From Closterium sp. NIES-65 (Eukaryota > Streptophyta > Zygnematophyceae > Desmidiales > Closteriaceae): a stretch of 64,000 nt of DNA. The stretch covers positions 2,852,001 through 2,916,000 of the forward strand of contig CANXME010002096.1 of assembly GCA_948144175.1 (NCBI GenBank), in the 5' to 3' direction. The stretch's first letter is position 1, and each line of letters starts with the position of its first letter. Below the pieces are notes generated by a model. The model was given only the letters and a program-made list of their open reading frames with translations. It ran no database searches and was not told the DNA's origin. This document shows positions 1,567-22,977 of the stretch, in pieces. The translations under genes and the position numbers were made by a program.

Positions 1567-2175
1567 TGTCAGTAGATCTGCACTGTGGATGCCCGATTGA
1601 TCCTGGAGAGGATTACAGGCGCGTTCGCCTGGGGGGTTATGGGCGCACTGACCCGCTACTGAAACAAGCCCTTTTATCCCAGTGGTCTAGTGGCTGGGAT
1701 TCTGACATGGTATCAGAGCGGTCTCGGGTTCGATTCCCGGTGTATGCACATGTAGGCCGTTGCCGCTGTGCTTAGTCCTGGGCCTCCCATTGTGGGGGGG
1801 TGTCAGTAAATCTGCACTGTGGATGCCCGATTGATCCTGGAGAGGGTTACAGGCGCGTTTGCCTGGGGGGTTATGGGCGCACTAACCCGCTACTAAAACA
1901 AGCCCTTTTATCCCAATGGTCTAGTGGCTGGGATTCTGACATGGTATCAGAGCGGTCTCGGGTTCGATTCCCGGTGTATGCACATGTAGGCCGTTGCCGC
2001 TGTGCTTAGTCCTGGGCCTCCCATTGTGGGGGGGTGTCAGTAGATCTGCACTGTGGATGCCCGATTGATCCTGGAGAGGGTTACAGGCGCATTCGCCTGG
2101 GGGGTTATGGGCGCACTGACCCGCTACTGAAACAAGCCCTTTTATCCCAGTGGTCTAGTGGCTGGGATTCTGACA
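1567..2175 (+). mobile_element. TRIM/SMART-like miniature LTR element with three LTRs in tandem
   Basis: Structure LTR-internal-LTR-internal-LTR: LTRs at 1567-1707, 1801-1941 and 2035-2175 (141 bp each), internal segments at 1708-1800 and 1942-2034 (93 bp, identical). LTRs begin TGTCAG and end CTGACA. Each internal segment opens with TGGTATCAGAGCGG, the plant initiator-Met primer-binding site, and closes with a G-rich purine tract (TGTGGGGGGG). The unit is flanked by a 5-bp target duplication GTACC (1562-1566, 2176-2180) inside the LINE RT. By eye LTR1 and LTR3 differ at 2 sites and LTR1 and LTR2 at 6. It has no coding capacity and looks structurally whole as a non-autonomous element. An alternative reading is a tandem tRNA-derived SINE, but the missing A-tail and the exact LTR-style ends argue against it. 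Confidence 0.8.
1683..1737 (+). promoter_or_regulatory. tRNA-like internal Pol III promoter (A box and B box) straddling the LTR/PBS border
   Basis: TGGTCTAGTGG at 1683-1693 fits the A-box consensus and GGTTCGATTCC at 1727-1737 fits the B box, with tRNA-like spacing of 33 bases. The whole block resembles a tRNA-Gly/Glu gene whose anticodon arm is replaced by the LTR end and the primer-binding site. The A box lies in the LTR and the B box in the internal segment, so only an LTR followed by an internal segment makes a complete promoter. A second complete copy is at 1917-1971. The third LTR has only an A box. Transcription by Pol III is inferred. Confidence 0.6.
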
Positions 2176-4422
2176 GTACCTGTTCAAGACGATGAGGAAG
2201 CTTGGGATACCGGATGAATTCGTGAGATGGACGGAGGGGCTGCACCGCGGCTCAGGGACGTCAGTGGTAATCAACGACTGGGTCGGAGAGAGGGTGGAGA
2301 TGAAGAGGGGAGTGAAGCAAGGTTGCCCGCTCGCGCCATATCTCTTCCTCTGCGCGATCGAGCCGTTGTGCCTGAAGATTAGGAAGAGAGGGCTGGGGGT
2401 GAAGGAGAAGGAAGGGACGGTGGAGTTGGTATATGTAAGGTATGCAGACGACACAACGCTCATACTGAAAGGAGAGGAGCAACTGAGGTCGGCAGTGGAA
2501 GCTCTGGAGCAGTTCGGCAGTTTGTCAAGCTTGCGAACAAACAACGACAAGTCGGTGGTCATGCCGATCGGAAGGAACAAAGGGAAGCAGTCGGCGGAGG
2601 GGGTAACTTTTAAATGGGCGAAAGCGGGCATACCAGAACAGCTACTGGGCATCTGGATCACGCCAGACGGAGATGCGGGACCATCCTGGAAGAAGGATTG
2701 GGAGCCGGGGAAAGAGGAATTGGTTAAGTGGGAGAGTCACCATCTTCTCACAACGGCAAGAGTGACGGTGATCAACGCGTATATAATGCCCATCTTCATC
2801 TTCCAAGCGCAGGTGTGCCCTCCGCCGGAGGAACTGTGGAAAAGGATTCAAAAGACGTGCGATAACGTTGTTTCAAGTGGGGAAGCCACGGCGGAGAAAG
2901 CGTTCGTGTTGTGGAGCGGGGAGCTTGCTCGGCTCCCGCGGAAGGAAGGGGGTTTTGGGCTCGTGGACCCTAAGGTGCGAATCGACGGCATGGCGGTCAG
3001 AATGGTGGGGAAGATGCTAGCGGAAAAGAACGCAACAAAGAGATGGTTAGCGGAGAAGGCGGCTGCGCTGCCACAAGGGGAGGCAACACTATGCGCGAAC
3101 CCGTCGGCGGGGAAGCATTGGCCGGGGGGCAGCCAGAGGTGGAAAGCGGCGGTGGACGCGTTCTGGGACTCCCCGTATGCGACACTGCCGGAGCCGACGA
3201 GCGGTTGGGAGGTGGAGCAGGAGCGTCTCTGCTTTAACCGCAGGATTGTGTTTAGAGGAAAGAGCACGTACGGGAATCAACAGAGGATAGAGGAGCTAAG
3301 GAAGGCGAAGCTTGGGGACTTGGTATCAGGGGAACTGGGGGCGGAACGCAAGGTGAAAAGCAAGGAGATGTTGAGAGAGGAGTTTGGAGGTGTGGCAGTG
3401 GCGAGATGGGCACTGATGGCATACGCGGCAACATTGAAAGAATGGAAGGAATTGGCAACCGCGAGGAAGACGGCGGAAAAGCTGGCAGAAGCAACGGACG
3501 TCGTGAGGACGTTCTTACCGCGGACGCAGGAGTATCTCTATTGGAAGGTTACAGGAGTTAAAGAGGACAAAGCGACGGTGTCAAGTGTGGAGCTGAAAAA
3601 GGAGGCTAAGATGGAGGATTGGGCCGAACCAGTCAAGGCGGTGTTCAGGCCAGAGCACGTGGAACCAGTAGCTACTAGAGGTGGCAGAGTATTAGGAGCG
3701 GTGGGCGCCCCGGCAGAAAGGCTGAAGATGTCCAAGCTGTTCGAAGATGACGGAGCACCGGCGAGGACTAAGGCGATTCAACGTATGATGGCAGGGCCTA
3801 CTACGGCCTCGAGGAAAAGGAGCGAGTGGGAGGAAAGATGGGGGAAAAAGATGGACTGGAGGAAGGTGGAAAGCAGGAGGGATTCGGTGGTGATCCCCAA
3901 CAAGGCAAGGGATGTGCTGTTGAGAGTGCATTGCCTGAACCTACAAGTGGGTGGCAGACTGAAGTTCCAGGGGGGGAGGGCGAGGTGTTCACATTGCGGG
4001 GAGCCTGAAACGCTGGAACACTGCATGTTCAGTTGTCCTCTCGTCCTGCCGGTGATCGGTGCGCTGCTGCGGTCGCTGCGGATGCTGGACCCCTCCAGCA
4101 ATCTGGACTTGCTGGGGGCTCTGCTCTTTGAGTAGGGGAACACGCGGTCAGGTTTCCCCGCAGCAACACTGGTGGCGACAACGTTTCGCCACATCTGGCT
4201 GGCGAGGTGCAATATGGTTTGGCGGGGGGAGGCTTTTCAGCGGAAGAAGGTAGCAAGAGGGGCAATTCGGGAGTTTGTGCAGCATGCCCAGGTGTACCGC
4301 ACGGAGCTGACGAGGAGGGCACGTAGGAAGGGTACAGCAAAGTAACGGATAGACCCATGGCGGGACCTGAAGGGAGATGAGCGAGTGGCGGTGGCATTGC
4401 TCGGCGAACCAGGGGAAAAGGC

Positions 4423-4556
4423 TGTCAAAAGTCTAGGCAGGAATGAATGAGTTGGGAAAAGTGTTGGGTACAAGTATGAAACCCAAAAAGGGGCTATACC
4501 CCATATTGGCTACCCCACTACAGCCTAAACATATATATCATACATATAATTTAACA
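4423..4556 (-). repeat. 3' LTR of copia A
   Basis: 134-bp direct repeat of 23726-23859. On the minus strand a purine-rich tract (about 4557-4566, ending AGGGGTG) lies directly before it. It joins LINE sequence at 4422. Confidence 0.85.
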
Positions 4557-4810
4557 CACCCCTATAGGCAAAGTGGGGGAGAGCAAGGGGTCACAAGACC
4601 AGTCAAAAGAAGCAAAGCAAGCTCAGGGTGGATCATAACGTCACCACACACACTGAGCACAAGCAAAGGGCCACAAGGCCAGTTCACATGCAGAGGTACA
4701 TATGCAACAACAACCAGTGATCTCTACCTAGCAGAGCAAGCATGCAGGTATATATATAGATCACAGTACAAGCAAAGTCTACAGCAAGTGAGGAAACGTG
4801 GGCACAAGGC

Positions 4811-6760
4811 CTAACTAAGTGCAGAAACGCTGATGATCACCAGACGGAAGTGCTTTGGTGAATATATCAGCAGTGTTGGCCCGAGTGGCCATGGAAGCAA
4901 GACGAAGCTGACCACGCTGCTGCAACTCTCAAGCAGGGAAGTAACGCAGGGCGATGTGCTTCGTTCTGTGCTCCAGTCTGTGCTCCTCACACAAGGCAAT
5001 GGCAGCCTTGTTGTCGACGAACAGAACTGGAGGAGAACGAGGCCGCTCTCCAAGGTCCGTCAGCAGGTAGGTGAGCCAGTGTAACTCCTGTGCAGCCATG
5101 GCTGTGGCGTAGATCTCAGCCTCACAACTGGAGCCGAGAACAGAAGACGGGCATGAAGACCGCCAAGAAATAGAGCCAGAGCCAAGACTGAAGGTGTAAC
5201 CTTGTGAGGACCGTTGCGTAGCCAGGTCGTCAACCCAAGAAGCGTCTGAGTGACCACTGAGGACAACGTCGCCCCGTCCTCCAAGCACGAGCCCCATGCC
5301 CGATGTACTGCACAAGTAGCGTACTACCCTCTTAGCGGCATCCATGTGCACCTTTCGGTGCCGACCAGGAGCCACGTAGCGAGCCAGAAGGCCAAGAGGG
5401 TACGCGAGGTCAGGACGAGTGCAAGTCATCAGGTACATGAGGCAACCAACTAGCTCTGGGTAAGGACCACTCGGCTCTACGGACTCGTCCGAAGGTGGAG
5501 CTGAGAGCGAGTGACCTGTAGCCAGAGGAGTGGCCTGTGCTGAGGACCGGGTGAAGCCGAAGTGCTGAAGGACCTGCTGCACCATGTGTGACTGAGTCAG
5601 TGTGATGGTGCGGCGTGCTCTGTCCCGGGTGATCTGCAAGCCAAGATAGCTGCGCAGCTCACCCAGGTCTGTGCACGTGTGTCTCTTCTGCAGCTCCGAC
5701 TCCACCAGGGTGAGAGCCTTAGTGTCAGCAGTGGCAAAGACCAAGTCGTCGACGTACACAAGGATCTAGAACGGCGGCAGCAAAGTGTCGGTGCGCAGAA
5801 ACAGCGACGGGTCAGCAGTCGACGGAGCAAACCCAAGAGCCGCAAGTGTTGTTCTCAGTGTGTCGTGCCACTCACGCGGCGCCTGGCAGCGACCGTAGAC
5901 TGGCCGCCGGAGGCTCCACTGGGTACCAGGGGGGAACGACCCAGTGAAGCCAGGAGGGCGGCGCAGCCAAATCTCCTCGTGCAGGCTGCCCTGTAGGAAG
6001 GTTGTGCTGAAGTCAAGAGAGTGAAGCTCGTAGTCACGCTGAGCGACAACGTGCAGCAGCACCTGAAAAGTGGTCATCTTTGGGGTGGGGGAGAAGGTCT
6101 GGAAGAAGTCAAATCCCTCCCGCTGACTGAAGCCTCGAGCAACGTAACGAGCCTTGAAGACAGGGGGAGAACCCGGCGGCCGCTTCACCCTGAAAATCCA
6201 CATGCCATTGACGATGTCCGCCCTAGGAGGGGGAACCTCATCGATGTAGGTGCATGTGGACTTCTAGGATGCCATCTCTGCGTCCATGGCTGTCTGCCAC
6301 TGAGAGGAGTACTCACCCGCGATTGCCTCAGCGTAAGAGCGCGGGGTCGGGATGTCTGGAGCATCTGGGTCTCCCTCACGGGCAAGCAGTATGGCCACGA
6401 GATGAGGCGCAGCAGCTGCAAGACACTCAAGGTCCTCCTGCCTGTCCTCAAGGACGTCCGTGCCAAGAGCACACTCACCCCCGACGGACGGAGGACAGAC
6501 AGACTCAGACTTGGCAACAAAACTAGCGACGTAGTCTAGACGACAGGCAGCAGCAAAGTCAACAAGCTTAGCGACGAAGGCAGACGCAGCAGCAGACTCA
6601 AACGACGAGTCAGTGACAATAGTGGCTAGTAGACGCGTGACAGTAGGGTGCTCAGCACGAAACCAGTCAGACTCAGGGTCAGCAACGACAGGAAGAGAAG
6701 ACGCATGAGGAGACGGCAGAGGAACACGCTGCGGAGTAGAGAAATGACGCAGAGCCATGA
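4811..6760 (-). other. Copia A RT and RNase H region (fossil)
   Basis: Minus-strand segments show the copia RT block (WIFRVKRPPGSPPVFKARYV, the catalytic YVDD) and the RNase H end (LYVDNKAA-like and RTKHIALRY). The protein is closely similar to the same part of copia D at 24799-26750, so the two are one subfamily. Broken. Confidence 0.85.
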
Positions 6761-9741
6761 GGTGTGTGCTGGGGACAGCCGGCGGACGCGGATGAGGAAC
6801 ACGACTACTAGTACGACCAGTGCGGACAGTGCGAACAGGCGAGACAGGACGCGACGCAGGCTCACGACGCTCAGCAAGACCTCCTGGCTGCTCAGTATAA
6901 GGAGAGGGAGCAGGCAGTGGTGAGCCAGGCTATAACGGAAGACTAGTAGACGACGGGAGGCTAAGAACCTGGCGAAGCACGGAGTCGGGCGGTGGCAGAG
7001 ACGTCAGAGACGCCGGAGCAAAGAACAGTCGTGGTTGCGCAGCGCCACCAGCACCAGCAGCTCCAGCACCACCGGCACCTCCAACACCTCCAGCATCTCC
7101 AGAACCTCCAGCTTCAGCTCCACGAGCGCTAGCACCACCAGTACCAGCGTCAAGAGCAGCTCCAGAACCCCCAGCACCAGCACCTCCAGTACCAGCGTCA
7201 CCGGCAGCCCCAGAACCTCCAGCGCCAGCACCTCCACTACCAGCGGCACCAGCAGCTCTAGAACCTCCAGCGCCAGCACCTCCCGTACCAGCGTCACTAG
7301 CAGACGCACCCCCATAACCGGCACCTCCAGCCCTAGGGGCTCTAGCCTCAGCGTCTCCAGCAGCGGCACCCCCAGACTCAGTACCGCCAGCCCCAGCAGC
7401 TCCAGTACCTCCTGTACGAGCACCTCCGGAACTAGCGACTCCACCACCTCCTGTAGATTAAGTACCAGCACCACTCCCAGCTGCAGATCCCCGAGCTCCA
7501 GCAGCGCGACCCTGACAGCTAACGTACCACTTGTGCAGCTGCTGAGGGGAGAGAGGCGCACGCGGACGAAGGCGGCCTCTCCAAGGAGACCACGCACCAG
7601 CAGTCTCAATACCCTCAGGCGCCGCACCCCCAGACTCAGCACCCCCAGGCTCCTCACGCTCAGGCGCAGCACCCCCAGACGCAGCACCCCCAGGCGTAGT
7701 ACCTCCAACCTCCTCACGCTCAAGCGCAGCACCTCCAAGCTCCTCACGCTCAAGCTCAGCACCCCCAGGCTCCGTACCCCCAGGGTTAGCGCCCCCAGGC
7801 TCCTCACACTCAGGCTCTGCACCCCCAGTGTGAGGATCTCGGTAGGGCTTCAGTAGCTGGACATGGAAAGCGTTGTGAAGCTTCCATGTATCTGGTAAGC
7901 GCAAGCGGAATGTAACTGGTGTCACCTGTGCCTCAACGAGAAAAGGACCACAGAAGCGAGGCCGGAGTTTGGATGGGAGGTGAGACAGGTTCAAGTTGCG
8001 CGTGTCAAGAAGCACCTGATCTCCGACTGCTACTGAGTGATCACGTCGCTGATGATCGGCATACTGCTTCTAGGAGTTCTGCATCGTGGTGAGACGTCGC
8101 TGAGTCTTCTCCCATAGCTGCTGCATGGTGGTGACGAAGTCATGTGCGGCTTGGACGTGTGCCGGTGTAGTTGGCTGCTGTGGTGTGAGTGGTTCCCGTC
8201 CGTAACACAGGAAGAAAGGAGTTTTTTCTGTGGCCGCATGTGATGCGTTGTTGTAAGCGAACTCTAGGGTCGGTAACTGTGTGTCCCAGTGGCTGACGTT
8301 GTCCTTGCAAGCTGTGTGCAGTAACTGTTCAACCACTTGATTGAGTCGCTCTGTCTGTCCGTCAGTCTGGGGGTGGTATGCTGAAGACATTGCAAGCTTT
8401 GTCCCCAACAGTCCCATGAGCTCCTTCCAGAACTTACTGGTGAATTTGGGGTCTCTGTCTGAGATGAGTGTAGCGGGGATGCCGTGGATGGTGATGATGC
8501 GGTCGAAGAAGAGTCGAGCAGTTGCTTCAGCTGTAGCTGTGGCGTTGGTCGGTATGAAGTGACCCATTTTGGAGAACTTATCGATCACCACGAGGATGGA
8601 ATCATGTCCCCGTGAGGTCGAAGGAAGTCCTGTGATGAAGTCGAGGCTAACGACCTGCCATGGCTGCTCCGGTACGGGTAGAGGCTGAATAACCCTGCTT
8701 TTTTCTGCTTGCTACTCTTCATCCGCTGGCACGTGTCACAAGAGGTGACGAACTGCTGCACGTCTGCTGCCATCCCGGGCCAGTAGTAATACTTCGCTAT
8801 CCCTGCTAACGTCTTGTTGCTCCCGAAATGTCCCGCGTAAGGTACGTCGTGAAACTCCTCCAATAGGATCTGCCGTAGCGGGGCGTAATTCGGTACCCAA
8901 ATCTTTCCTGAACCCTTCCTTACAGCTAAGTCTTTCTCCCACTGTAATAGCTTCTTACTGAGGTAGGCGATGGGCTGCAAACTGCGTTCGTGATGCTGCA
9001 TCAGTACTGCTCCGACTGCTTGGTCACTAGCGTCTGCTTCCACCACGTAGTCCTTGTCTGGATCCGGTAAGATGAGTACTGGCGCTGTAGTCAGTGCTGT
9101 CTGTTTGTTCAGTGCGCGGTAGTCGATGCACATCCGTAAACTACCGTCTGGCTTTGGAGTGAAGAGAACTGGTGCACCGTAGGGAGAGGTGGATGGGCGG
9201 ATCAGTTGTCTGTCTAGTAGATACTCTATCTGTTTTTCATGTCTGTCAGTTCAGTTGGACTCAGTCGGTATGGTGCATGTAAGACGGGTTTCGCACCTGG
9301 TTCCTCCACGATCTCGTGCTCGTGGGTGCTTGCTGGAGATACGCCTGTGGGTAGGTCGTCGGGCATTATATCCTTGTACTTCTCCAAGACCTCCTCCTCT
9401 GCTGCTGCTATAACCAGTGCTAAGTAATCCGTGTTACTCTCGTTCACTGTCCGTTCGAATCGTGCCAGTGTCGTTTCAGGAACGCTCCCTGTATCCGTCA
9501 AGCTTCGCAGCTCCACTCGTTTCCCGTTGTTGTAGATGCACACCTTGCTGTTGACCCAAACGATCTCGGGGTTGAACTGCTTCACGAAATCTCGCCCCAA
9601 GGTAAAATCTAATCCCTTGATGTTCGTGATCGGAAACTTCGGCTTCCACCTCAACGCCCCTATCTGCAGCTGCAGTGTTGACTTTTCGTGGATGGGAAGC
9701 TTCGTACCGTCCACCATCGTTGCTGTAAACTGGGTTTCTTC

Positions 9742-11082
9742 TTAGGATTCTCCAATTTTCTCCAACGTCCCGCGGTCGCACACCGAGTGGGACGCACCAC
9801 TGTCCACCAGGGCCTGGAGGCGACGCCCGTTGCAGATCACCTCGAGTACTAGTGGTTGCTGCTGCTCCGAGTATCCGTAGATGGTAACGCTTATAGGATC
9901 GTAGGGTACGTCGAATATGTTACCCCTAGGTCCTGCGCTCAAAGATGCAGCTTCAGTATCAGTTTTCAACTGAGAAAGGTTAGAAGGATTTATCCGAGGC
10001 CGATTCGGCTTCTCTTGGGCCTGGAACCTTCCACTAAGCCTTTGCAGCTGTGTAGGCTTCATCTGTGGGGAACAGGGAGCCTTTAAACAGTGCTGCTGGG
10101 AGAGAATATTAACTCCTCGGAACGCTTGACCCGTATTAGCGCTCTGGAGTAGGGTCCCCATAATACCCGGTACCGGTTTAATGTCTGACTCTCCCTTAAT
10201 AAAGGCTTGAAACCCACGAGAAGTAATATTCTTACTTGTCGGGGTATACGGCTGGAGTTTCCCGGTCGGTGCAGGGTCTTGTTTCGCGGATCCTCCATTA
10301 GTCTCGGCGATTTCCCCTGGTGCCGGCTGGTCGTGACGTTTTAAATTTGCGCCACCATATTCTCCTTTTTCCGCCCTCTCCGAAGTTGCCACGTTGTCCG
10401 TTTTCTGCTTCGGGGGTGCCGCACTGTTCTTGTCCTTCAGATCCGCACACCTTCTCTTCATTTTCCAACACGCCAAGATACGATGTCCTGTAGCGCCGCA
10501 AAATTTGCACGTCTCATTATTTGCTAGCCGCTGCTCCACATCGCCCTCGTCGTTCTCCATCGGGTCGGTAGTCGTGGGTGGTGCCAATTGCCCCATGCCA
10601 CTAGTTGGCTTGTTGCGTCGTGTTCCGTAGTAGCTACTGTTCAACGTGTCGAACTGTTCGATCAGTGCTGCCGGAACCTGCGCCCACGTCCCCTCGCCTT
10701 GGACTATTCTGTCGTTGATCCACTCTAGAGCTGGGCCTCGTAACAGTGTTGCTGCAAGCCGTATGCGCATTGCGTCTTTTGTCGGGGTCGTGCATCTAAC
10801 GGCTTCGAAGTAAATTTCGAGTTCAGCTACAAATCGACGAACGTCGTTCCTTTTTACTGTAGGATCGAACGCCTCCGGTAGCCTCAGCTTCACTGCTTCG
10901 AGGTTAACTGTAGCTGCTGCCGTTGTCGCATGTGGAATTGTCGGTGTAGCCGCTGCTGCTGCTGCTACTGTTGTCGCTGCTGCTGTGGCGGTTGCCGACT
11001 GGTTCGCAAGGAGTTTTTCGAGTCGTGGGAGCGCCGCATGTATTTGCTTATGCTCAGCACGTAACTCCGCGATTTTCTGCAC
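9742..11082 (-). other. Gypsy E gag and protease region (fossil)
   Basis: 446-residue open segment. The N-terminal helix-rich part is followed by a retrotransposon gag domain (LPEAFDPTVKRNDVRRFVAE, then ALEWIND), a single CCHC knuckle (CKFCGATGHRILAC) and a retropepsin motif (ALVDSGASHSVC) at the end. It belongs to the Ty3/gypsy element at 7829-11895. Confidence 0.8.
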
Positions 11083-12001: not shown

Positions 12002-12907
12002 TCACCAGTGACCTCCACAGGTGCAGGCACGGGAGGGTCTACTTGAGAAACACCTGAAGGAGCAGGACCTGGCGCGGGGAGGGGGGTCTACCAGGGGAGG
12101 ACATGGAGCGAGAAAGAGCGGCGGGGGGGGGCGAGGGGCAGTGCGGTAGGGAAAGAGACGGTAAAAGGGTACTGACTCATCAAAGGTGACGTCCTGAGAC
12201 GCAAAGACACGGCGCGAAGCGGGGTCGTAAAACTGCCAGCCAGGCGCGTCAGGGACAAAGCCAAGGAAGACGCAAGGAATGGCGCGAGGGGAGAGCTTGT
12301 CCGCAGTGGTATCACGGACAAAGGCACGGGCACCCCAAACTCGGAAACGCGTCGCATCGCCAACCTCCCCCGCCCAACACAGTGTGGGCGAAGTCTCCGG
12401 CACGGAGACACGGGGCCAGAGGTTGAGCTGATGCGCGGCGTACCGGACCGCAAACGGCCACTGAAAATGGGGGGCAGCCGCATGGATCATGGAGGTACGA
12501 GCGACCTCCATGACTAAGCCAATGCGGCGCTCAGCAACCCCATTCTGTTGCAGAGAGGCCGGAAGCGTGAACGTCTGGCGGATGTCGTGCTCCTCACAGT
12601 AGGCTCGCAAGAGGTCGGAGGAGAACTCACCACCTCTGTCAGAGTGCAGACGCAGGACAAGAAAGTCCGACTGGAACCGCTCGCGGAGCTGGAGACGAAC
12701 AGCGCGGATCTAGGGGATCAAAACATCAGGGACCTCCCCCTTGCGCTGCAAGGGAAAGACCGTGGTGTAACGCGTGTAGTCGTCGACAACCAGCAGGAAG
12801 TACCACTCGTGGCCCTGTCCCTGGACGCGGGCTGGGCCCCACACGTCCAGGTGGAGAGTCTGCAGCGGAGCCCCTGCGGGAGGAAACGAGGAGGAGTGAG
12901 GAGCGGC
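12002..12907 (-). other. Copia A integrase, second half (fossil)
   Basis: The minus strand shows integrase core residues (LHSDRGGEFSS, QNGVAERRIG) and the conserved tail up to SQDVTFDESVPFYRLFPYRT. It matches the same region of copia D at about 28000-28700. The upstream half lies beyond gypsy C, at about 20860. Confidence 0.8.
12819..12907. repeat. Left copy of an 89-bp copia A direct repeat flanking gypsy C
   Basis: 12819-12907 and 20771-20859 carry the same 89 bp of copia A with about one difference, one on each side of gypsy C. This is far longer than the 4-6 bp an integrase makes. Confidence 0.85.
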
Positions 12908-13359
12908 TAATACGGAAGTTGCACTGAGGGAAGTTGCAATTCACTGAGGGAAGTTGCAATTCATCCTAATAACGCTAATACGGTGCAATGTGATGTGCTG
13001 TAGCATATGGAGCGGGGTGTAGAATGTTATTTGACTTGTAAGCAGGTTGGTGGGCAGCAGGGAGAGTGACGCGAAGTTGGTGGCCTGGGGACCAGCGAGG
13101 CGCGCAAGAAGTGAACCCAAGAGCCTCGAGCAACTGGGGAATCACTCTGGCCAATACCAAGCTGGAGCGGCCCGAACTCAACCAGAACTCTGAGACATTG
13201 GCGACTTGGCTGGGGATAGATTTATAGCCTAGAGAAACATCACTCAATTAGTTCTCTCGTTTGTTTACTCTCTATAGTGGATTAAGTTGCTGATCTAAGC
13301 TTTCTAAGCCAGGTGACAAGGCCACTCGGGGTAGCCAAGTGTGGGGGACGGATTCTTCA
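12908..13359 (+). repeat. 5' LTR of gypsy C
   Basis: It matches 20230-20659 from the CACTGAGGGAAGTTGCAATT word to the terminal GACGGATTC-TCA. Its outer end has a short duplication of that word, so its exact left border is uncertain. I could not recognise a clear primer-binding site after it. Confidence 0.75.
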
Positions 13360-14615
13360 CAAACGAGAGAAGAAACGCGCAGTATGGACTGCCACGAGCA
13401 TCGATGGGCTAGGACCTACAGTCGACGGGGTCCTGGAGTGCAGCGGAGGATGCGCTCACGAGAGCGCGGGAGATCGCCAGTACGCTCACCGCGTACGGAA
13501 GCATACCGCGCGGATCGGGTAATGCTTGAAAGGAATCGGCGCGCGGAAGGTGAGCCTGGACGTTTTGCGGAGTCAGTTCCCAGGTCACTAACCACGCGAA
13601 GCGATCCTTGGAATCTGCCGAGTCGCAGCGAGGGCGTCCAGTGCCTCGAGGAGGTTGATGTGCGCGACCAGTTAGAGTCGTCAAGCAAGGACGACGGGGT
13701 CGACGATGACGATGTCCAAATTGCGCGGGACGGCGTGAAGGAACCTGAAGAGGGAGAGGCCGCGGATGCGGAGGAGCATGAGGACGGAGAAACGGGCCTG
13801 AAGGGAGAAGGGACGGAGCGCGACGCGACGGATCTAGTACGTGAGAACGGAGGGGAGCGTCGCGCGCGCGCGGAAGCAGATCCCTTTTCAGTCAGACGCG
13901 GTGAAGGTGTCCGCCTTAGCGCGAGCAGGCAGGGGCGTACTGTTCGCCTGAGCCGCGTGAAAGGTACGGGAGGAGGGGACGAAGGGCGATGGGCATGCGA
14001 AGGTCGCCAGAGCCGTATGAGGGAGGGGATCGCCATGAGAGAGATGCGCGAAGCGAACGAGAAGAGGGAGGAAGGTCGCGCGCGGACGCGGATGATCGAC
14101 TGCAGAGAAGAAATAAGCGTCGTGAGGAAAGGAGAGGATTATCGCGAGGAAAGTCAGAGGCGGAAAAGACACCTGAGGATGGGGTAAGAAGGAGGAAAGA
14201 AGAGGAGGAACAGAGATATGAGAGGCGGCGCCAGGAACGGGAAATTGAGACTGAGTCTGAGAGCGAAGAGGAGTATGACCGGGCCCGTCGCAGGCATGGT
14301 AAGCAAGACCGGCGCAAGGACGGAGAATCACCTGAGGTAAGGGGTCAACGCAGGGAAAGGCGAGAAGAGAGCCGCGCGAAGGCCAGCGAGAGGCGTAGCC
14401 CGAGCCCGGGATGGCAGGGAAGGTCTGAGCGTGTGAGGGAAGGCTCTAGGGGAGCAAGAGCTACGAGGGAAGGCATAGAGCTTGCGTTGTACGGAGGGAG
14501 CACAAAGAGCAGGCGATCAGGAGCAAGGGGCAGGGAGTACGGCTATCCGGCAGGAGAGGAGTCAGGGACGTGGGAGACGGGGAGATGGAGTGTGGCAGCA
14601 ATGCCACGGGTGTAG
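13360..14615 (+). other. Gypsy C leader region, Arg/Glu/Ser-rich
   Basis: Overlapping open segments between the 5' LTR and gag encode a strongly charged sequence rich in RE, RS and RR dipeptides (for example RREERRGLSRGKSEAEK). This resembles nucleic-acid-binding or SR-like tails. No known domain is recognised. It may be an N-terminal extension of gag or an untranslated leader. Confidence 0.5.
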
Positions 14616-16208
14616 GTGCCGGTGAGGTTCACGGGAGACATAGGGACAGGGAGCAACCTGAGGAACTACCTTATGCAGATAGGTAACGTGAAGTACCGCT
14701 GTGACCGTAGCGGAATGGACCCAATCGAGTTCTTCTTAAGTTTGCCTAACACCTTGGGAGGGGAGGCAGAGACGCTGTACCGCATGAAAATGAAGGAGTG
14801 GCTGAGAAGGGCGGAGGAGGATGATGAGGACCCCACGATACTGTTCCTGGAGCGCCTTCGGAAGCAGTTCCCGGGGCATACGGCGGAAAGGATTGGGGAG
14901 TTTCAGGAGTTCAGACGGGGGAAAACAGAGTCACTACTTACCTATTACGGGAGATTGATGAACCTGGCGAAAGATGTCGTATGCACGGACAGCAGCATGC
15001 TCATAAGTAAGTTCCTGGGGGGACTGGACAAGGGGTTGAGCGGGGGGCTGAGAATGCGGGTATATGAGCTAGGGGCGGAGGCCACACTAGAGGAGGTGTT
15101 TGAGCTGGCGGAAAAGGTGGAACTGGCGCAGCGGCGGTATGAGGCCTACCTGCTAAAAGCGGCAGAAGAAAGAAAACCTACCTGGGCAGCAGCAATGATA
15201 CCCGAGGAGGGGACAAGGGAGGAGAATCGGCAGGAGAGAAGGGTGGACACACGCACCTGCCACAGGTGTGGGCAACAAGGGCATATAAAGAGGGACTGCA
15301 AGAATTGTGACACATGTGGCAAGCCTGGGCACCGCCGGAGGGAATGCCCGGACGCGCCCAAATGTGAGGTGTGTGGGAAACAGGGACATCAGGCGAAGGA
15401 CTGCTATCAAAGGACAGGTGGGCCAAAGAGGTCATCCGAGGACATAGAGAAGCAGATTGGTAGGCTACAGGCACAGTTGCGGGACATGGGAGGGAAGAAG
15501 GAGAGGGAGGCAGGAATGTATGCAAGAGAGGAGGAAGAAGATGGGGAGGAGGAGGAGCAGAAACCGAAGTGGTCATTTGCGGTGCTGCGGAGCAGAGAGG
15601 AGTTAGGGTTACGAAGCGGAGGGATGGACAAGCGCAAAGAGCAGGTGATGAAGGAACGCCGCAGACCTGAGCAGAAGATAGCAAGGACAGAGGGGCAGGC
15701 AGGGACAGCCCACCGGCACCCCAAGGACAGACTGGCCAGCCAGACGACAGTGTTGGTAGTTGAAGCAGGGGCCATAACAGTAGGGGGAGAACGGGCAGGA
15801 ACAGCAATCATAGATACGGGGGCACAGAGCGTGATGCTGGGAAGGAAGATGGCACAAAAGCTGGGACTGATGGGGCCAGGCCAGTACGTTAAAAAGGGGA
15901 TGCTGGTGATGACAGCAGAGGGAGGGGCGCCGAAGTGGATGCCAAGCACAAAAACACCTGTGGAGATAGTGCTGCTGCCAGGACAAGAAGGGGAGACAAG
16001 GATCCGAGTGCAGTGCGGCATCTCAGACTCAGAAGATTTTGATGTGCTGCTGGGAACCGACTTAGTGTACAAGGTAGGAATGACAATATGCAGCTGGAAG
16101 GAGCAAGTGGAGTTCAGGAGGCAGTACTGGAATAAGCGGAGTGAGTTGGGTGAGTTACCTGTGCGGTTCGTGAAGCAGGAGCCGAGAAGGGCGTATATTG
16201 CAGGATAG
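14616..16208 (+). other. Gypsy C gag and protease region (fossil)
   Basis: 530-residue open segment. A retrotransposon gag domain comes first (about residues 40-190, with FLERLRKQFPGHTAERIGEF). Three consecutive CCHC knuckles follow (CHRCGQQGHIKRDC, CDTCGKPGHRRREC, CEVCGKQGHQAKDC), then a charged linker, then an aspartic protease (AIIDTGAQSVMLG with a downstream DVLLGTDLV block). The order gag-knuckles-protease is standard for Ty3/gypsy. Confidence 0.85.
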
Positions 16209-16275
16209 GGAGGTGAGGAAGGAGCAGAGCTGAATGGCACAGGGAACAGGAGGAGCAACTGGCTGCAGCCGATAA

Positions 16276-17257
16276 GGATGGTGGAACTATTCGGGGGGAT
16301 AGGAGCAGGATTGGCAGCAGTGTTAAAAGCAGGGGTTGCAGTCAAAGAATGGATATATGTGGAGAAGGATACACGAGTGCGGAAGATGGCGGAGAACCAC
16401 GCAAAGAAGAGTATCCAGAGCTGTTGGGAGAAGAAGTGATAGAGCGGGCCATGCGTGGGACGGTGAGAGATGTGAGACACATAACACGAGATATGGTGCG
16501 CAGCTGGGGGCACGTGGACCTACTGGTGGCAGGGTGGGAGTGCCAGGGGGTATCGAGGGCGGGAAAGGGAAAAGGCATGGAGGATCCTAGGGGGGCATTG
16601 CTGTTAGACCTGCTGCGCATTATGGACTGGATAAAGGAAGGACAAGGGGAAGTAACATACCTACTGGAGCACTTGGACCTGGAAGGGGACTTGAGAGAGC
16701 CCGTGAGAAGGGTGAGGGAACTGGTGACAAAGCGGTTGGGGAAGGGAGTCAGATATGATGCAGCAAGGTTGGGGGCACGAGCGCACCGGGTAAGGCGCTA
16801 TTGGCAGAACGTAGTACTGGAAGACCAGCTGCAGGAGGAGCTAGATGGGGTGAAGCGGTCATGGGGCAGGACAATGAAGGATATACTGGAGGTGGGGAGG
16901 ATGGCGGCACCAGTGAAGAAGGGCAGACACGAGACACAGTGTCCGTGTAACAAGGTGGGGGAGGAGCGAAGGGCGTGGCCAACTCTGGTGGCCTTTGAGG
17001 GAGCAGCGGGATTTAGAATGGAGAATGGCGAGGCAGGGGAAGGGATGGTGTACGACCACCGAAAGAAGCAGTGGGAAGAACCAACAGCGCTTGAGCGAGA
17101 GCTGGCGATGGGGTACGGGAAGGACATAACACGGGCGGAGGGAGTCACAGAGCAAGAAAGGCGCAGCGCGCTGGGAAGGGCAATGGATGGACAGGTAATG
17201 CTGTGGCTGACGCACAGGATGTGGAGGGGACTGGTTTGGGACAGCACCCAAAGATAG
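16276..17257 (+). other. C5 cytosine-DNA methyltransferase domain inside gypsy C
   Basis: Known C5-methyltransferase motifs occur in order. Motif I (SAM binding) is VELFGGIGAGLAAVLKAG from 16279, followed by the motif II-like IYVEKD. A motif IV-like block DLLVAGWECQGVSRAGKG has the Cys-Gln-Gly-x-Ser core (about 16516-16570) and EDPRGALLLDLLRI behind it. A motif VI-like YLLEHLD follows, then a motif VIII-like GARAHRVRRYWQN (about 16768-16810). Last come motif IX/X-like blocks LERELAMGYGKDIT and LGRAMDGQVMLWL (about 17090-17215). Spacing and the C-terminal block are nearer to DNMT3/DRM-type enzymes than to bacterial ones, but that is by eye. The domain lies between protease and RT, so it belongs to the element and is not a host gene. 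The cargo's role is unknown; methylating element or host DNA is the obvious idea. Treated as a fossil. Confidence 0.85.
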
Positions 17258-17284
17258 GAGGAGGCAAGGGAAGTAGCAGAGAAG

Positions 17285-19912
17285 GTGGGGGCATGGGCAT
17301 GCATGCCAGCAGGAGCAAAGGAAGCAGAATGGGAGGTGGGAGATGCAATGAGCCCTGACGGAAGGAAGGCACTGCAGGCGCTGCTGGCCAGGTTCCGCCA
17401 TGCCTTCGCCTTCACCTTGCAGGAGTTAGGGAAATGCACCGTTAAGGAGATGGAGCTGAAATTAATGACGGAGGAACCGGTGTTCCAGAGGAAGCGGCGG
17501 ATGACGCCAGGGGACGCGGATATTCGCAAGGAAAAATGCAAGGAGTTAATAGAGGCGGGGCTGATTCAGCGATCCGAGTCCGAGTATGCCGCGCCGACCG
17601 TGATAGCAGCTAGGAAGGACCTGACGGGGGAGATACTGAGCAGGCGCATGTGCGGGGACTACAGAGCGCTTAACAAGGTGACTGTGCCAGATCGCTACCC
17701 CATGCTAGCTGCGGAGGAGATCTTTGACAGGCTGGGGGCAGGAGAGATATTCAGCACGCTAGACTTAAGGCAGGGCTTCAATCAGATTCGGATTAGGAAG
17801 GAGGACGTGCGCAAGACCGCGTTTCATGGAGCGGACGGATTGTACGAATGGCTTTTCATGCCTTTCGGGCTGAGGAACGCTTCAGCAATCTTCCAGAGGG
17901 TTATGGACAGCGTGCTGCGGAGCCTGGACTGTGCCGCCAGCTACATAGATGACGTAGTCATCTTTAGCAGGACAGAAGAAGAGCACGTCAGGGACGTGGA
18001 GCGAACGCTAGAAGCGCTAGCAGTAGCGGGACTCACCTGCCACCCGAAGAAATGCAGGTGGGGAAAGGCAACGGTGCACTACATGGGCTATGAGGTGCGG
18101 GGCGGACAAATAGGGATCCAGAAAGCGAAAGTGGAGGTGTTAAACCGACTACAGCAGCCGAAAGACAGGACAGGACTCAGGGCAGTATTAGGCTTCCTAA
18201 GCTACAACCGACGTTTCGTGCCCAACTTCAGTAAGCGGGCAGCAGCACTCAACGGCTTGCTACGTGAGGACAGGAAGTGGGATTGGGGGGCAGAGCAGCA
18301 GGAGGCACTGAAGGACCTCATGGAAGCAGTAAAAACAGGGACCATACTGCAGCTGCCTCAAGCGGACAAGCCATTCTGCTTGTACACTGACTGGAGCAGC
18401 CTGGGCATGGGGGCGGTGCTATGTCAGGAAGTAGATGGGGAGGAAAGGGTGGTGGCATATGCGAGCAGAAGCTGCAGTCCAGCGGAGGCGAAGTATAGCT
18501 CTTACCATGGGGAGGGTCTCGCAGCTGTGTGGGCAGTAGGACACTTCCGGGTTTACCTGCAGGGGAGGGAATTCACCCTGGTGACAGATCACCAGCCGCT
18601 GCAGTGGTTGATGACGCACCAGGGTCACACAGGGAGGAATGCGAGATGGGCAGTAAAACTGCAGGAATATGACTTCAAGATTCGGCATAGGCCGGGGAAG
18701 ACACTCCAGCATGTGGATGGGCTTTCCAGAAACCCGCCGCCGCCAGCACCAGAGCACACGCTGATCCTATTTGTAAGGGCAGGAGAAGTGGCAGCAACAG
18801 AGAAGCAGAAGGGGCCAAGGGATATTTGGGAGGATGCAGCAGCAATGCGATGGGTCAAGGGGGAAACGGAAGCAGACGAGCATGTGCAAGAGAGAGTAAG
18901 GGCAAGGGGTGTTCACTACAGGTGGTACCAGCAGCAACTGCAGATACAGACGGAAGACGGCTGGAAACTGGTACCTGCACCAGAGGACAGGGAGGGGCTG
19001 ATCAGGGAGGTACACAACAAGCTAGGCCATTTCGGGCATGAGAGGACTATGCAGCTGCTGAAAACTGGCTGGTGGTGGGAAGGGATGAGGAAACAGGTGA
19101 AAGAATGGGTGAGCGGGTGTGAGGGTTGTCAGCGAAGCAGGGCCAGTCTGGTCCAAACAAAGCAGGAGTTGCAGTCATTGCCGATACGTGGGCTGGGGTT
19201 CAGGTGGTTATTAGATTTGGCAGGAGAGCTGCCGCTGAGCAGGGGAGGTCAGCAGTACATCCTCCTCATGGTGGAACATGCAAGCAAATGGTTGGAGGTG
19301 CGCGCTATTCCCAGCAAGAGCTCGAAGCATGTGTCAAAGGCCTTCAAGGAGCAAGTGCTATGCCGGTTTGGAGCACCAGGGGAGGTCTTGACAGACCAAG
19401 GGAGTGAATTCAGAGGGGAGTTCCAGGCATTGTTAGACCAGGCACGCGTCACGCACCGGAGGACTTTTTGGTATCATCCTCAAAGTGATGGACTCACAGA
19501 GCGGCTGGTGCAGACCTTGAAGCGGAATCTGCAGGCATACGGGGAGAAGCGGAAGAGAGACTGGGATGAGGAACTGCATTGGATTGCAGCAGGATACAGG
19601 TCCGGGAGGCAGGCATCGCTGAGGGATCACTCGCCGTATAGCCTGCTGTTTGGGCGAGAGCCAGTACTGCCAGTGGGGGCATCGCGGGTGTTAACCGACC
19701 CGGTGAGCGTGCAGGGAACCGAGAAGTGGGTAGCACTAGCGGAAGCAAGAGCACGTTACATGAAAGAGATGCTACCAGCCGCACTCGAGAACCTGCACAC
19801 AGCACAGTTGCGGGATGCACTGAGGTACCAGCAGCGGCAGCAGAAGGGAGGAGGAAAGGGGAAGGAAGCAGTGGCGGAGGGAGAAGAGGTTTATTTGAAG
19901 AGGGCCAAGTAG
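17285..19912 (+). other. Gypsy C RT, RNase H and integrase region
   Basis: 875-residue open segment. RT motifs include CGDYRALNKVTV, TLDLRQGFNQI, FMPFGLRNASAIFQ and the catalytic SYIDDVVIF. RNase H has LYTDWSSLGMGAVL and TDHQPLQW. The integrase zinc-binding HHCC is at HNKLGHFGHERT...CEGC, and the catalytic core has WLLDLAGE, VLTDQGSEF and SDGLTERLVQ. The length is normal for a Ty3/gypsy pol. No chromodomain is recognised in the short tail that follows to about 20130. Confidence 0.88.
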
Positions 19913-20117
19913 GATACCCTAGACGTGGGACTAGGAACCGTAAGGTGGAAGGTGAAAGCAGTACGCGACTCAGGGGTGCTGGTACTGGAGAACGAGAAGG
20001 GGGAACAGACAGTGGACCACCAGACCAATGCAGCGGTGGTGAGGAGCAGCCGGCCTCAGCTGGATGGTCCTGTGACTCGGGCCCGTGCAGCACGAGCACG
20101 AGCACAGGAGGGGGCAG

Positions 20118-20227
20118 GGAGTGGCTGAGAGAGGCACAAGAGAGAAGACGGGCAAGGAACAGAAGAGGGGAAGGTAATGGGGCAAAAGTTGGAGCAGGGA
20201 GACAGGTAAGGGAGGGGATTCACGACA
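20118..20227 (+). repeat. Gypsy C 3' internal end, first copy of a 110-bp repeat
   Basis: The stretch from GGGAGTGGCT to GGATTCACGACA lies just before the 3' LTR and contains the purine-rich tract. It recurs at 20660-20770, just after the same LTR. Confidence 0.8.
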
Positions 20228-20229
20228 GC

Positions 20230-20659
20230 TGTCACAGAATTCACTGAGGGAAGTTGCAATTCATCCTGTTAACGCTAATACGGTGCAATGTGATGTGCTG
20301 TAGCATATGGAGCGGGGTGTAGAATGTTATTTGACTTGTAAGCAGGTTGGTGGGCAGCAGGGAGAGTGACGCGAAGTTGGTGGCCTGGGGACCAGCGAGG
20401 CGCGCAAGAAGTGAACCCAAGAGCCTCGAGCAACAAGGGAATCACTCTGGCCAATACCAAGCTGGAGCGGCCCGAACTCAACCAGAACTCTGAGACATTG
20501 GCGACTTGGCTGAGGATAGATTTATAGCCTAGAGAAACATCACTCGATTAGTTCTCTCGTTTGTTTACTCTCTATAGTGGATTAAGTTGCTGATCTAAGC
20601 TTTCTAAGCCAGGTGACAAGGCCACTCGGGGTAGCCAAGTGTGGGGGACGGATTCCTCA
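20230..20659 (+). repeat. 3' LTR of gypsy C
   Basis: About 430 bp, starting TGTCACAG and ending TTCCTCA. It is near-identical to the 5' LTR. Confidence 0.8.
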
Positions 20660-20859
20660 GGGAGTGGCTAAGAGAGGCACAAGAGAGAAGACGGGCAAGG
20701 AACAGAAGAGGGGAAGGTAATGGGGCAAAAGTTGGAGCAGGGAGACAGGTAAGGGAGGGGATTCACGACACCCTGGACGCGGGCTGGGCCCCACACGTCC
20801 AGGTGGAGAGTCTGCAGCGGAGCCTCTGCGGGAGGAAACGAGGAGGAGTGAGGAGCGGC
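20660..20859. repeat. Repeated gypsy C tail plus second copy of the 89-bp copia A repeat
   Basis: 20660-20770 repeats the gypsy C 3' internal end (20118-20227). 20771-20859 repeats copia A 12819-12907. Together they show a local rearrangement at the 3' border of gypsy C after insertion. Confidence 0.8.
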
Positions 20860-22977
20860 GCGCTGCCGTCCCTCGACGCAAGGAATGCAAGGGGGCGCAG
20901 GCAAGGGAGGGAGGGCAGGCAGAGACCTGGGAAGACCAGAGGCCAGGGAGCGAGAGTGCATGCCACGAAGGCAAGGCAGGGAGGGGTGACCAAGGTGGTG
21001 GTGCCAAAGGAGGGTCTGGTGCGACAGGCGATGACACTCACACTGGGTAGCTACCTGAGCAGACGCATACAACTGAGGAGACAAAGGGGTAGAGCACGAC
21101 ACAGTGGTGAGGGTGTACAGACTGGACCCAGGCTCACGGGTGAACGTGGCTAGGTGGCGGCCGGTCCGAGAGCACGTGCAGATTGCCACACGCTGCCCTC
21201 CAGGAGTAAAGGTGTCAACCCAATGATCCTGAAGGACGGCATTGCTCACCAAGTTCATAGAGAACGAGGGGAGGTGGAGACCAGACAACTCACCAGACGG
21301 GACCGCTGGACACAGAAGCACAGTGGAAGACCATGCAAGCATTGGGCCCCCAGAGGGGTCAGCCAATGAGACAGGGACAGGTGCAGGGAGGGGAGTGACT
21401 GTGGTGGTGTCGCGAAAGAAACAGCGGGAAGCACCAGAGTCAAGTGTAAAGGTGTGCAAGGCCTTTGTGGACGCAGTACCAGGGAGAGCAGACTCACGAG
21501 CACCTAGAGCTGCAGGCGCTATACCTGGGGCTATACCGGGGTCAGGCGGCACACACAAGTAGCAGTCACCCTTAGCACTAATAGTCAATGTATACATGGC
21601 AGCAAGAATAGCATCATAGTCAAGATCAAAGATAGGTACATCACGCCTAAGCATGTCTGCCAAGTTGGGGAAATCAGTAGCATCAGGAAACTTGACACGC
21701 CAGGCGTCGCTAAGCCGAGCGAAGCAGCGGTACTCAGTGTGAAAGCCTGTGCACTGGCGACCAGCGCGGGGACCTGTGCGAATGATATAGGGGCAGCGAC
21801 CAGGACCCCCAGACGCCCCACGCCCGGCATACCAGTCATGAAGCTGCTGGGAAGTGGGGGTCTGGCGCTAACGCTGTTGCTGCTGTTGCTGCTGCCCCTG
21901 GCCACCACTGGTCTCACTCAAGCCCCCACCACCGCCGCCACCACCACTCCCCCCTCCGCCACCACCGTCGCCGCCACCGCCACTGCTCCCAGCACCACCA
22001 CCGCCCCCACCACCACCTCCACCCCCACGACCACCCCCACCACCTCCACATCCCCTGCCGCCTCCACCACCGCCCCCTCCACTGCCACGCCCGCCACCCC
22101 CACTACCCCTGCCTCCCCTGGAGCCGGTGCGCTTCCCACTAGGAGCGAAAGCAGCTGCAACCTTCTCAGCACCAAGGAGGTCGACAGCAGCAGCTGCGGA
22201 CGCGTAGGAGGGGGTATAAGGGGAGGGGGGCACCCCTCAAAGAGGGGAGTGCGAGGAGTACCACGAGCAGCACCTACAGCGAGGATGTTCTTCTCTGCTG
22301 CTAGGAGGTGCTTCTCGAAGTCGGCGACAGTGAGAGTGGTAGGGTCTAGGGCTAGGAAGTGGTCCCTGACGTAGTTAAGAGTGTCAGGGAGGCGGGTGAC
22401 GAGGAAATAGAGAGTGAAGTACATCGGGGGAGGGGGGGGGGGGGGGGGGGTTCTCGGCGCAGAACTCGGCTGGAAGGGCGGCACGAAAGCGAGTGTCACT
22501 AGTGCGAAGGTGAGAAATGAGGTCCTTAGCAGTGGTAAACGAGGACAGGTCTGGGAGCAGGTAGGGTAGCATGAGCCGACCTAAGGCTGCAGTGGCCGGG
22601 GAGGAGTAGTGCGCAACTACAGCGTCATACAGTGCCTTAGCAGTTTTGTGCTGGCTGAATTGCGCGTGCTTAGTGATCAGCAGATGATTTCGAATAGCTA
22701 GGCGTGCAGCAGCATCGAGAGTCTGCCACTGTGAGCGTTCGAGAGCAGTATCATCGTCAGCAGGAGCAACGGCAGTGCCAGACACGTAATCGAACAGTGA
22801 AACGCCATCTTTGGCATCAGTCAGAAGAAACAGTTGGAGATCGTCAAGCCACGTGGCGAACTCTATCGGGCGACCGTCAGGCTCAAACGCGAGAACATTA
22901 AGTATCGCCATAATCGCAGTGCAGGCAAAGGCAGTCGGCAAAGGCAGTAGGCAGCTGGCAAAGGGCGCGAGCAGCAA
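20860..22977 (-). other. Copia A gag, protease and pre-integrase region (fossil)
   Basis: Minus strand: a gag-like domain begins near 22977 (VLAFEPDGRPIEFATWLDDL, later LISHLRTSDTRFRAALP). A proline/glycine-rich stretch with a poly-C/G run at about 22430 follows. After it come the protease (FTLDSGASRCFFRD) and the pre-integrase zinc-binding region (HHLGHPSLPCLRGM...CIPCVEG). The protease and later parts match copia D. Confidence 0.8.

Follow-up and report, generated by a model that had tools for sequence, protein, structure and literature searches.

A DNMT3-like methyltransferase and unusual terminal repeats in a Ty3/gypsy family of Closterium suggest integration from DNA circles

The closest described relative of the element considered here is KnitGypsy-Dnmt3 of Klebsormidium nitens, a Gypsy element with a Dnmt3 domain in Pol, repeats arranged as in DIRS elements and a Ka/Ks below 0.2; its DIRS-like repeats are mentioned in the accessible text without explanation (PMC5890265). 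The dinoflagellate SymbioDIRS-Dnmt3 also has a Dnmt3-type methyltransferase in Pol and the repeat order A-coding-B-A-B, but it encodes a tyrosine recombinase, not a DDE integrase, and belongs to a distantly related retrotransposon class. PAT elements have split direct repeats and DIRS1 has a circular DNA intermediate; DIRS1-like elements contain an MT domain, whereas Ngaro and Viper do not. Foamy-virus integrase cuts the palindrome of the circle with two long terminal repeats (LTRs) and leaves a 2-nt 5' overhang (PMC1180852). Comparisons with known systems draw on the accessible parts of PMC5890265, PMC12344493, PMC1180852 and PMC3266345. The DNA analyzed here, referred to as the window, is a stretch of 64,000 nucleotides from the streptophyte Closterium sp. 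NIES-65 (contig CANXME010002096.1, positions 2,852,001 to 2,916,000 of the forward strand). At 12908-20770 it contains a decayed copy of a Ty3/gypsy element with a C5-cytosine methyltransferase domain lodged between protease and reverse transcriptase (RT).

The results presented here point to a family that probably encodes one polyprotein (leader, gag, protease, methyltransferase, RT, RNase H and integrase) and probably integrates from a circle joined from complementary DNA (cDNA) and opened by the integrase at a palindrome. The observations behind this account are the domain order, the methyltransferase motifs and the selection on them, the A-coding-B-A-B repeats, the termini, the 4-bp target duplications, the palindrome, a polypurine tract and a variable joint. 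The assembly (874 Mb, 2,400 contigs) was searched with PF00145; 123 of 901 candidates were scored, all 123 above the cut-off, and 20 loci of 10 kb, every one picked by its methyltransferase match, were studied. The order gag-protease, methyltransferase, RT-RNase H-integrase is found in 18 of these loci, in L015 as broken pieces. L011 has the methyltransferase and pol without a gag-protease match, and L025 is a piece of a host gene rather than an element. L025, which has a PF00145 match, contains a piece with 9mvy, 7ubu and 4fsx as its best PDB matches (~2e-34), the last of which we take to be a plant chromomethylase, and chains named DNMT1 next at 1e-14; a chromomethylase-like exon points to a streptophyte host. 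Long uninterrupted frames occur in several copies: L040 has a single frame of 2,321 codons from leader through integrase (639-7601 of the oriented locus), L041 one of 2,184 codons, and L014, L022, L023 and L027 have frames of 1,774-1,953 codons.

Self-comparison reveals two distinct repeats, A (~375-660 nt) and B (~110-285 nt). They are arranged as A-coding-B-A-B in the window copy, L010, L012, L014, L018, L019, L021, L024, L027, L040, C2075, C802 and C2100. This order rules out the plain two-LTR structure given by an earlier reading of the window made from its sequence only (the sequence-only reading), and the right end, placed there at 20659, lies at 20770. Gag with CCHC knuckles, aspartic protease, RT, RNase H and DDE integrase follow one another as in Ty3/gypsy, while the two identical LTRs of that group are missing, the left end having only A and the right end only B. 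By its proteins the element is Gypsy; by its ends it is not a standard LTR element. The elements start with TGTC and finish with GACA. Exact 4-bp target duplications, all different, flank 15 of the 16 copies having both true ends: eight of eight in one group (L010 TATA, L012 TGAC, L014 TGAA, L018 TCTC, L021 CTCA, L024 ACGC, L027 AGTT, L040 ACTC), three of three in another (C2075 GAGG, C802 CATC, C2100 GTCA), and four read from the flanks (C1450 TACC, C1728 GCAT, L017 GAAG, L028 GGGT). The count covers neither the copies with a missing end (window, L009, L013, L019, L020, L022, L023, L026 and L041) nor the broken L011 and L015, nor C783.

A palindrome is present in 15 of 22 sources, as GACA-GC-TGTC in 13 and as GATA-GC-TGTC in L018 and L021. 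Three of the seven other sources, L016, L017 and L028, have the A-coding-B structure and hence no inner B/A boundary. By chance 0.16 palindromes would be expected per window, and two were found. The second, GACAGCTGTC at 53169-53178, has no gag or pol match nearby; it may be a remnant of an old family member or have arisen by chance. A purine run ending in GGGGGC(A) lies just 5' of B1 in the window copy and its relatives, and the leader follows A1. The purine run stands where the plus-strand primer usually lies, and together with a leader after A1 this implies that the LTR of reverse transcription would be B+A and would contain the integrase site. The window copy is laid out as follows.

12819-12907, no strand: left copy of an 89-bp host duplication, 98.9% identical to 20771-20859
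12908-12937, plus strand: 30-nt filler standing for the first 8 nt (TGTCACAG) of A
12938-13359, plus strand: A1 repeat (left), 98.3% identical to 20238-20659 over 422 nt
13360-14615, plus strand: Arg/Glu/Ser-rich leader, N-terminal in the one long frame of L040, interrupted in the window
14616-16208, plus strand: gag-protease open frame with three CCHC knuckles and an aspartic protease
16276-17257, plus strand: DNMT3-like C5-cytosine methyltransferase domain (PF00145, 1.5e-7), broken in the window copy
16538-16546, plus strand: motif IV E-C-Q codons, with the catalytic Cys at 16541-16543 and Glu in place of the usual Pro
17285-19912, plus strand: open frame for RT, RNase H and DDE integrase, by Pfam
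20106-20114, plus strand: polypurine tract directly 5' of B1, the putative plus-strand primer
20115-20227, plus strand: B1 repeat, 99.1% identical to 20658-20770
20224-20233, no strand: palindrome GACA-GC-TGTC at the B1/A2 boundary, the putative integrase attachment site
20230-20659, plus strand: A2 repeat, by self-comparison
20658-20770, plus strand: B2 repeat, its GACA being the right end of the element
20771-20859, no strand: right copy of the 89-bp host duplication, paired with 12819-12907

The window copy and its relative L040 are 97.83% identical over 6,951 aligned bases. Three small deletions break the frame of the window copy, one of them within the methyltransferase, and five codons of the L040 frame are stops in it, distributed over the leader, the gap between protease and methyltransferase, the region after the methyltransferase and the end of pol. 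Judged by its sequence, the window copy is defective, and no intact methyltransferase can be made from it. It is a recent relic, with 98.3% identity between its A repeats and 99.1% between its B repeats. Set beside A2 at 20230 and L040, the left filler looks by eye like pieces of A in shuffled order; together with a host duplication of 89 bp, not 4 bp, it gives the impression that repair of a staggered break and not integrase had inserted this copy.

The joint between A2 and B2 varies among close copies. In 11 of the 15 joints compared (window, L040, L010, L012, L014, L018, L019, L023, L027, C2075 and C2100) the LTR edges meet within a few nucleotides, some of them overlapping or having one base added, and the joint of L024 has 8 extra nucleotides. 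Three joints are displaced: that of L020 lies ~275 nt past the edge, in the leader, with B from position 14; that of L021 lies ~65 nt past the edge, also in the leader, with B from about 33; and C802, which has lost the end of A, has a short repeat at its joint. L018 is 99.0% identical inside to L020, yet its joint is at the LTR edge; it is 92.1% identical inside to L021. Five further copies, C2075, C2100, C802, C1450 and C1728, have 98.6-99.5% mutual identity over 1.2-1.8 kb of their right ends and five different end structures: three different A/B joints in the first three, A-coding-B in C1450 and A/A'-coding-B in C1728. A single A and a single B are also found in L017, L028 and L016, the last without a target duplication. 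The A-coding-B copies are compatible with circles carrying one LTR, and C1728 with a circle whose LTR was shortened. Changes after insertion offer simpler explanations of both, and the argument therefore leans mainly on the displaced joints. Joint variation of this kind is what end joining of linear cDNA, repeated anew for each insertion, would leave.

In the proposed sequence of events, transcription would start and end inside A, and reverse transcription would produce a linear cDNA whose two ends are B+A LTRs. Host end joining would close these ends into a circle, or into an end-to-end multimer, and thereby form the A/B joint; the A2/B2 joint of the window copy, at ~20658, would correspond to the joined cDNA ends. 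The integrase would cleave the palindrome after CA on both strands, leaving 2-nt GC overhangs that are then lost, and the opened circle would be inserted with a 4-bp stagger. The chromosomal order A-coding-B-A-B would thus result from a B+A-LTR molecule that was circularized and then opened at the palindrome. By analogy, foamy-virus integrase, also a DDE integrase that cuts a palindrome on circular DNA with 2-nt 5' overhangs, offers a direct precedent for this chemistry (PMC1180852); in foamy virus, as described in the accessible text, the palindrome is the LTR-LTR joint, whereas in the present family it is internal to the LTR and the joint is separate and variable. More tentatively, the methyltransferase, as part of the same polyprotein, may methylate the cDNA of the element, most likely as the unintegrated circle, and methylation could mark the circle as 'self' or silence it until insertion.

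Several observations weigh against integration from circles. The account is built from genome sequence, and cDNA, circle and protein are all deduced from it. Edge-to-edge joints in 11 of 15 copies are also expected if the joint is inherited, and only the displaced joints of L020, L021 and C802 and the joint of L024 depart clearly; C2075 and C2100 differ by one base, as do the window copy and L040. The A-coding-B structure is also obtainable by recombination of B1 with B2 after insertion, A/A' could be a local tandem duplication, and the joint of C802 could be a later slippage deletion. Opening at either palindrome predicts that A-B-A-coding-B should be as common as A-coding-B-A-B, and the sole copy near it is C1728, which is without that B. 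L022, which stops where A2 reaches the LTR edge and has neither B2 nor a duplication, is not accounted for by circles. L016 has both ends and no duplication, and the duplication of the window copy is 89 bp. Finally, a transfer RNA primer site after A1 was not recognized on inspection by eye.

The sequence-only reading had described a Ty3/gypsy element with a gag of three zinc knuckles and the ordered motifs of a C5-cytosine methyltransferase between protease and RT, and in this it was borne out. Pfam matches zf-CCHC in three stretches (6.3e-13), Asp_protease_2 (3.5e-6), DNA_methylase (1.5e-7, 31.6 bits, cut-off 22), RVT_1 (4.2e-29), RT_RNaseH (2.9e-35), Integrase_H2C2 (9.2e-18) and rve (4.6e-11). 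The profile search it had proposed for 16276-17257 thus gave a match, though one confined to profile positions 48-99 of 324. The five motifs all lie where claimed and in the claimed order: ELFGGIGAG (motif I) at 16284-16310, GWECQGVS, whose Cys codon is 16541-16543, EHL at 16667-16675, HRVRRYW, ending at 16804, and LGRAMDGQV at 17171-17197. What they do not share in the window copy is a reading frame; motif I is in the frame of gag-protease and motifs IV-X (16541-17197) are in another, whereas in the close relative L040 all motifs share one. The leader rich in RE and RS is likewise present but is not a separate unit; in L040 it is read in one long open frame together with the other domains.

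A profile built from five copies of the methyltransferase domain, METHYLTRANSFERASE, has DNMT3A, DNMT3B and DNMT3C chains as its best PDB matches (4.5e-12 to 7.7e-10), with further matches to HhaI (1.5e-7), to 4onj (1.9e-6), presumably a plant DRM, and to DRM2 (4.4e-5). With motifs I, IV (Cys), VI, VIII and X in order and DNMT3 as the best match by sequence, the domain is of the DNMT3 type. It departs from that type in lacking the Pro-Cys of motif IV. Of 51 loci scanned for motifs together with the window, 14 are end pieces that lack the domain; motif IV was found in 36 loci, among which some insertions are counted on two contigs, as Glu-Cys (WECQ) in 35 and as Gly-Cys in L032. Motif VI is EN followed by V, P, L or S in most rows showing it, EHL in the window and L040-L045, and KNL in L036.

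The ratio of nonsynonymous to synonymous substitution (dN/dS) of the methyltransferase was obtained from 14 in-frame copies, of which six pairs, including two near-repeats of L017/L026, fell in the usable dS range; copies with stops (L012, L013, L016, L019 and L021) or split frames (L009, L011 and the window) were left out. The ratio is 0.06 for L010/L014 and 0.06 for L017/L026, and, at dS below 0.03, 0.35 for L040/L041 and 0.25 for L041/L042. For pol the median is 0.13 over seven pairs, some copies with stops being kept. By these values the domain is under purifying selection, as a selected part of a diverse family. The deeper pairs are saturated at synonymous sites, indicating that the domain is old in the family. 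Methyltransferase and pol trees agree in their main groups but support no particular deep order, and L024, L027 and L028 shift.

The source of the domain may be either a host DNMT3 or an old viral enzyme. The viral source stays a candidate because PHROG family 116 covers nearly the whole L022 domain at 1.9e-21, better than Pfam. In total 176 phage records match the methyltransferase; the 25 matches listed cover 56-70% of the domain with 24-30% identity. No relative of the five-copy profile was found in scans of viral and prokaryote contigs. In a tree of 16 rows the element methyltransferases form one group (100/99), with five phage enzymes, all five carrying PCQ, and two DNMT3 enzymes on the other side; this tree, which carries a long-branch warning, does not separate phage enzymes from DNMT3 in nearness to the element domains.

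It is possible, but on the whole doubtful, that the methyltransferase is a passenger without an enzymatic role, acting for example only in nucleic-acid binding. The Pro next to the catalytic Cys is replaced by Glu in 35 of 36 loci and by Gly in the remaining one, and in the subfamily of the window His replaces the Asn of ENV to give EHL; both changes question methyltransferase activity and weigh against the role proposed above as well. So does the K. nitens relative, which showed no methylation in yeast, a result that its authors called inconclusive (PMC5890265). Passengers would not be expected to keep the Cys, an ENV-type motif (in most loci), HRxRR and motif X over deep divergence with a low dN/dS, as this domain does. 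Enzymology has a clear target in the Glu-Cys motif IV, which stays the same across deeply diverged copies.

For the ends, the order A-coding-B-A-B could instead be a fixed, templated design of the PAT/DIRS type, in which the RNA would extend from A1 to B2, both ends would be restored from the joined B1-A2 stretch as template, and the integrase would insert a linear TGTC/GACA molecule. Such a design would account for a repeat order equal to that of SymbioDIRS-Dnmt3 and, by its legend, KnitGypsy-Dnmt3, for a B1-A2 boundary that unites both element ends as the internal complementary regions of DIRS1 do, and for the 11 of 15 joints at which LTR edges meet. A templated joint should be inherited, however, and the copies of 98.6-99.5% identity differ in end structure, while the joint of L020 is grossly unlike that of L018. 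As far as the accessible descriptions go, PAT and DIRS1-like elements use a tyrosine recombinase and DIRS1-like elements make no target duplications, whereas the present family has an rve integrase and 4-bp duplications in 15 of 16 copies. A templated design is therefore unlikely.

Integration from circles must also be set against chromosomal recombination, by which an ordinary LTR element would have acquired its odd ends, for example when a circle recombined into an older A-B remnant or by unequal exchange in tandem arrays. Methyltransferase matches on C995 at 7,064-bp spacing do suggest tandem copies, and A-coding-B could be the product of recombination of B with B. Recombination would not be expected to leave 15 of the 16 two-ended copies each with its own 4-bp duplication directly abutting TGTC and GACA, and the A-coding-B-A-B order spans several subfamilies. 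Divergence of A1 from A2 and of B1 from B2 is similar in most copies, L012 being the exception. This explanation is highly improbable. Least credible of all is a one-off capture of host DNA by the window copy, for which no support was found and which is ruled out by a domain in the same place in 18 of 20 loci, the outcome of the family check that the sequence-only reading had proposed, with methyltransferase identities of ~45-100% to the L006/L014 query.

Some copies have lost part of the methyltransferase: L034 is without its 3' part, and L043 and L044 are without the piece bearing motif I, so methyltransferase-defective copies persist. Their neighboring frames are at least partly kept, and these copies are possibly non-autonomous or methyltransferase-free derivatives. 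L058 and L040, and likewise L059 and the window copy (at 20771), have 15 nt of right flank in common and may be the same insertion on two contigs, as alleles or duplicates; copy counts would be inflated to that extent. Three methyltransferase matches 7,064 bp apart (G000:C995:460522-474898) and two 7,088 bp apart (C382:36104-43365) are probably tandem arrays of whole units. Minus-strand open frames of the window at 9742-11082 and 20668-22977 appear by eye to be gag/protease-like and copia-like retroelement pieces, and the element sits inside such a piece. A near-perfect tandem array with a 72-bp unit occupies 47899-48732.

KnitGypsy-Dnmt3 and the present family have in common the Gypsy domains, a Dnmt3-type methyltransferase in Pol under purifying selection, DIRS-like repeats and a streptophyte host, and, compared by text and legend, the present family has the full combination of Gypsy polyprotein, Dnmt3 and DIRS-like order. 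Methyltransferase capture was published in 2018, as the sequence-only reading had stated, and in the same paper the authors suggested methylation of cDNA for DIRS elements (PMC5890265). The novelty which that reading had considered possible does not extend to the methyltransferase-Gypsy combination, already present in KnitGypsy-Dnmt3; what appears new is the account of the ends, with 4-bp duplications, an internal palindrome and a variable joint. The accessible part of the KnitGypsy-Dnmt3 paper yielded no circle integration, attachment palindrome or variable joint, and 'circular' has 0 matches in its main text (PMC5890265). Circle integration by a Gypsy family was also absent from the titles and abstract starts among the matches listed from the open-licence literature.

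Finally, the results bear on the fate of circular DNA and on the link between retroelements and methyltransferases. DNA circles of retroviruses and LTR elements are usually regarded as dead ends. If the account given here is true, the Closterium family represents natural circle integration by a DDE integrase, legible from genome sequence alone. It is conceivable, and about as open to doubt as to belief, that a lineage of LTR elements whose attachment site has moved inside the LTR inserts closed circles instead of linear ends, each insertion with the end-joining scar of its own circle, and that the methyltransferases of retroelements track a circular stage. Such a stage, which DIRS1-like elements, SymbioDIRS-Dnmt3, KnitGypsy-Dnmt3 and the present family have or are inferred to have, would be the substrate of the enzyme. 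The puzzling association of retroelements with methyltransferases would then gain a testable substrate, the unintegrated circle.

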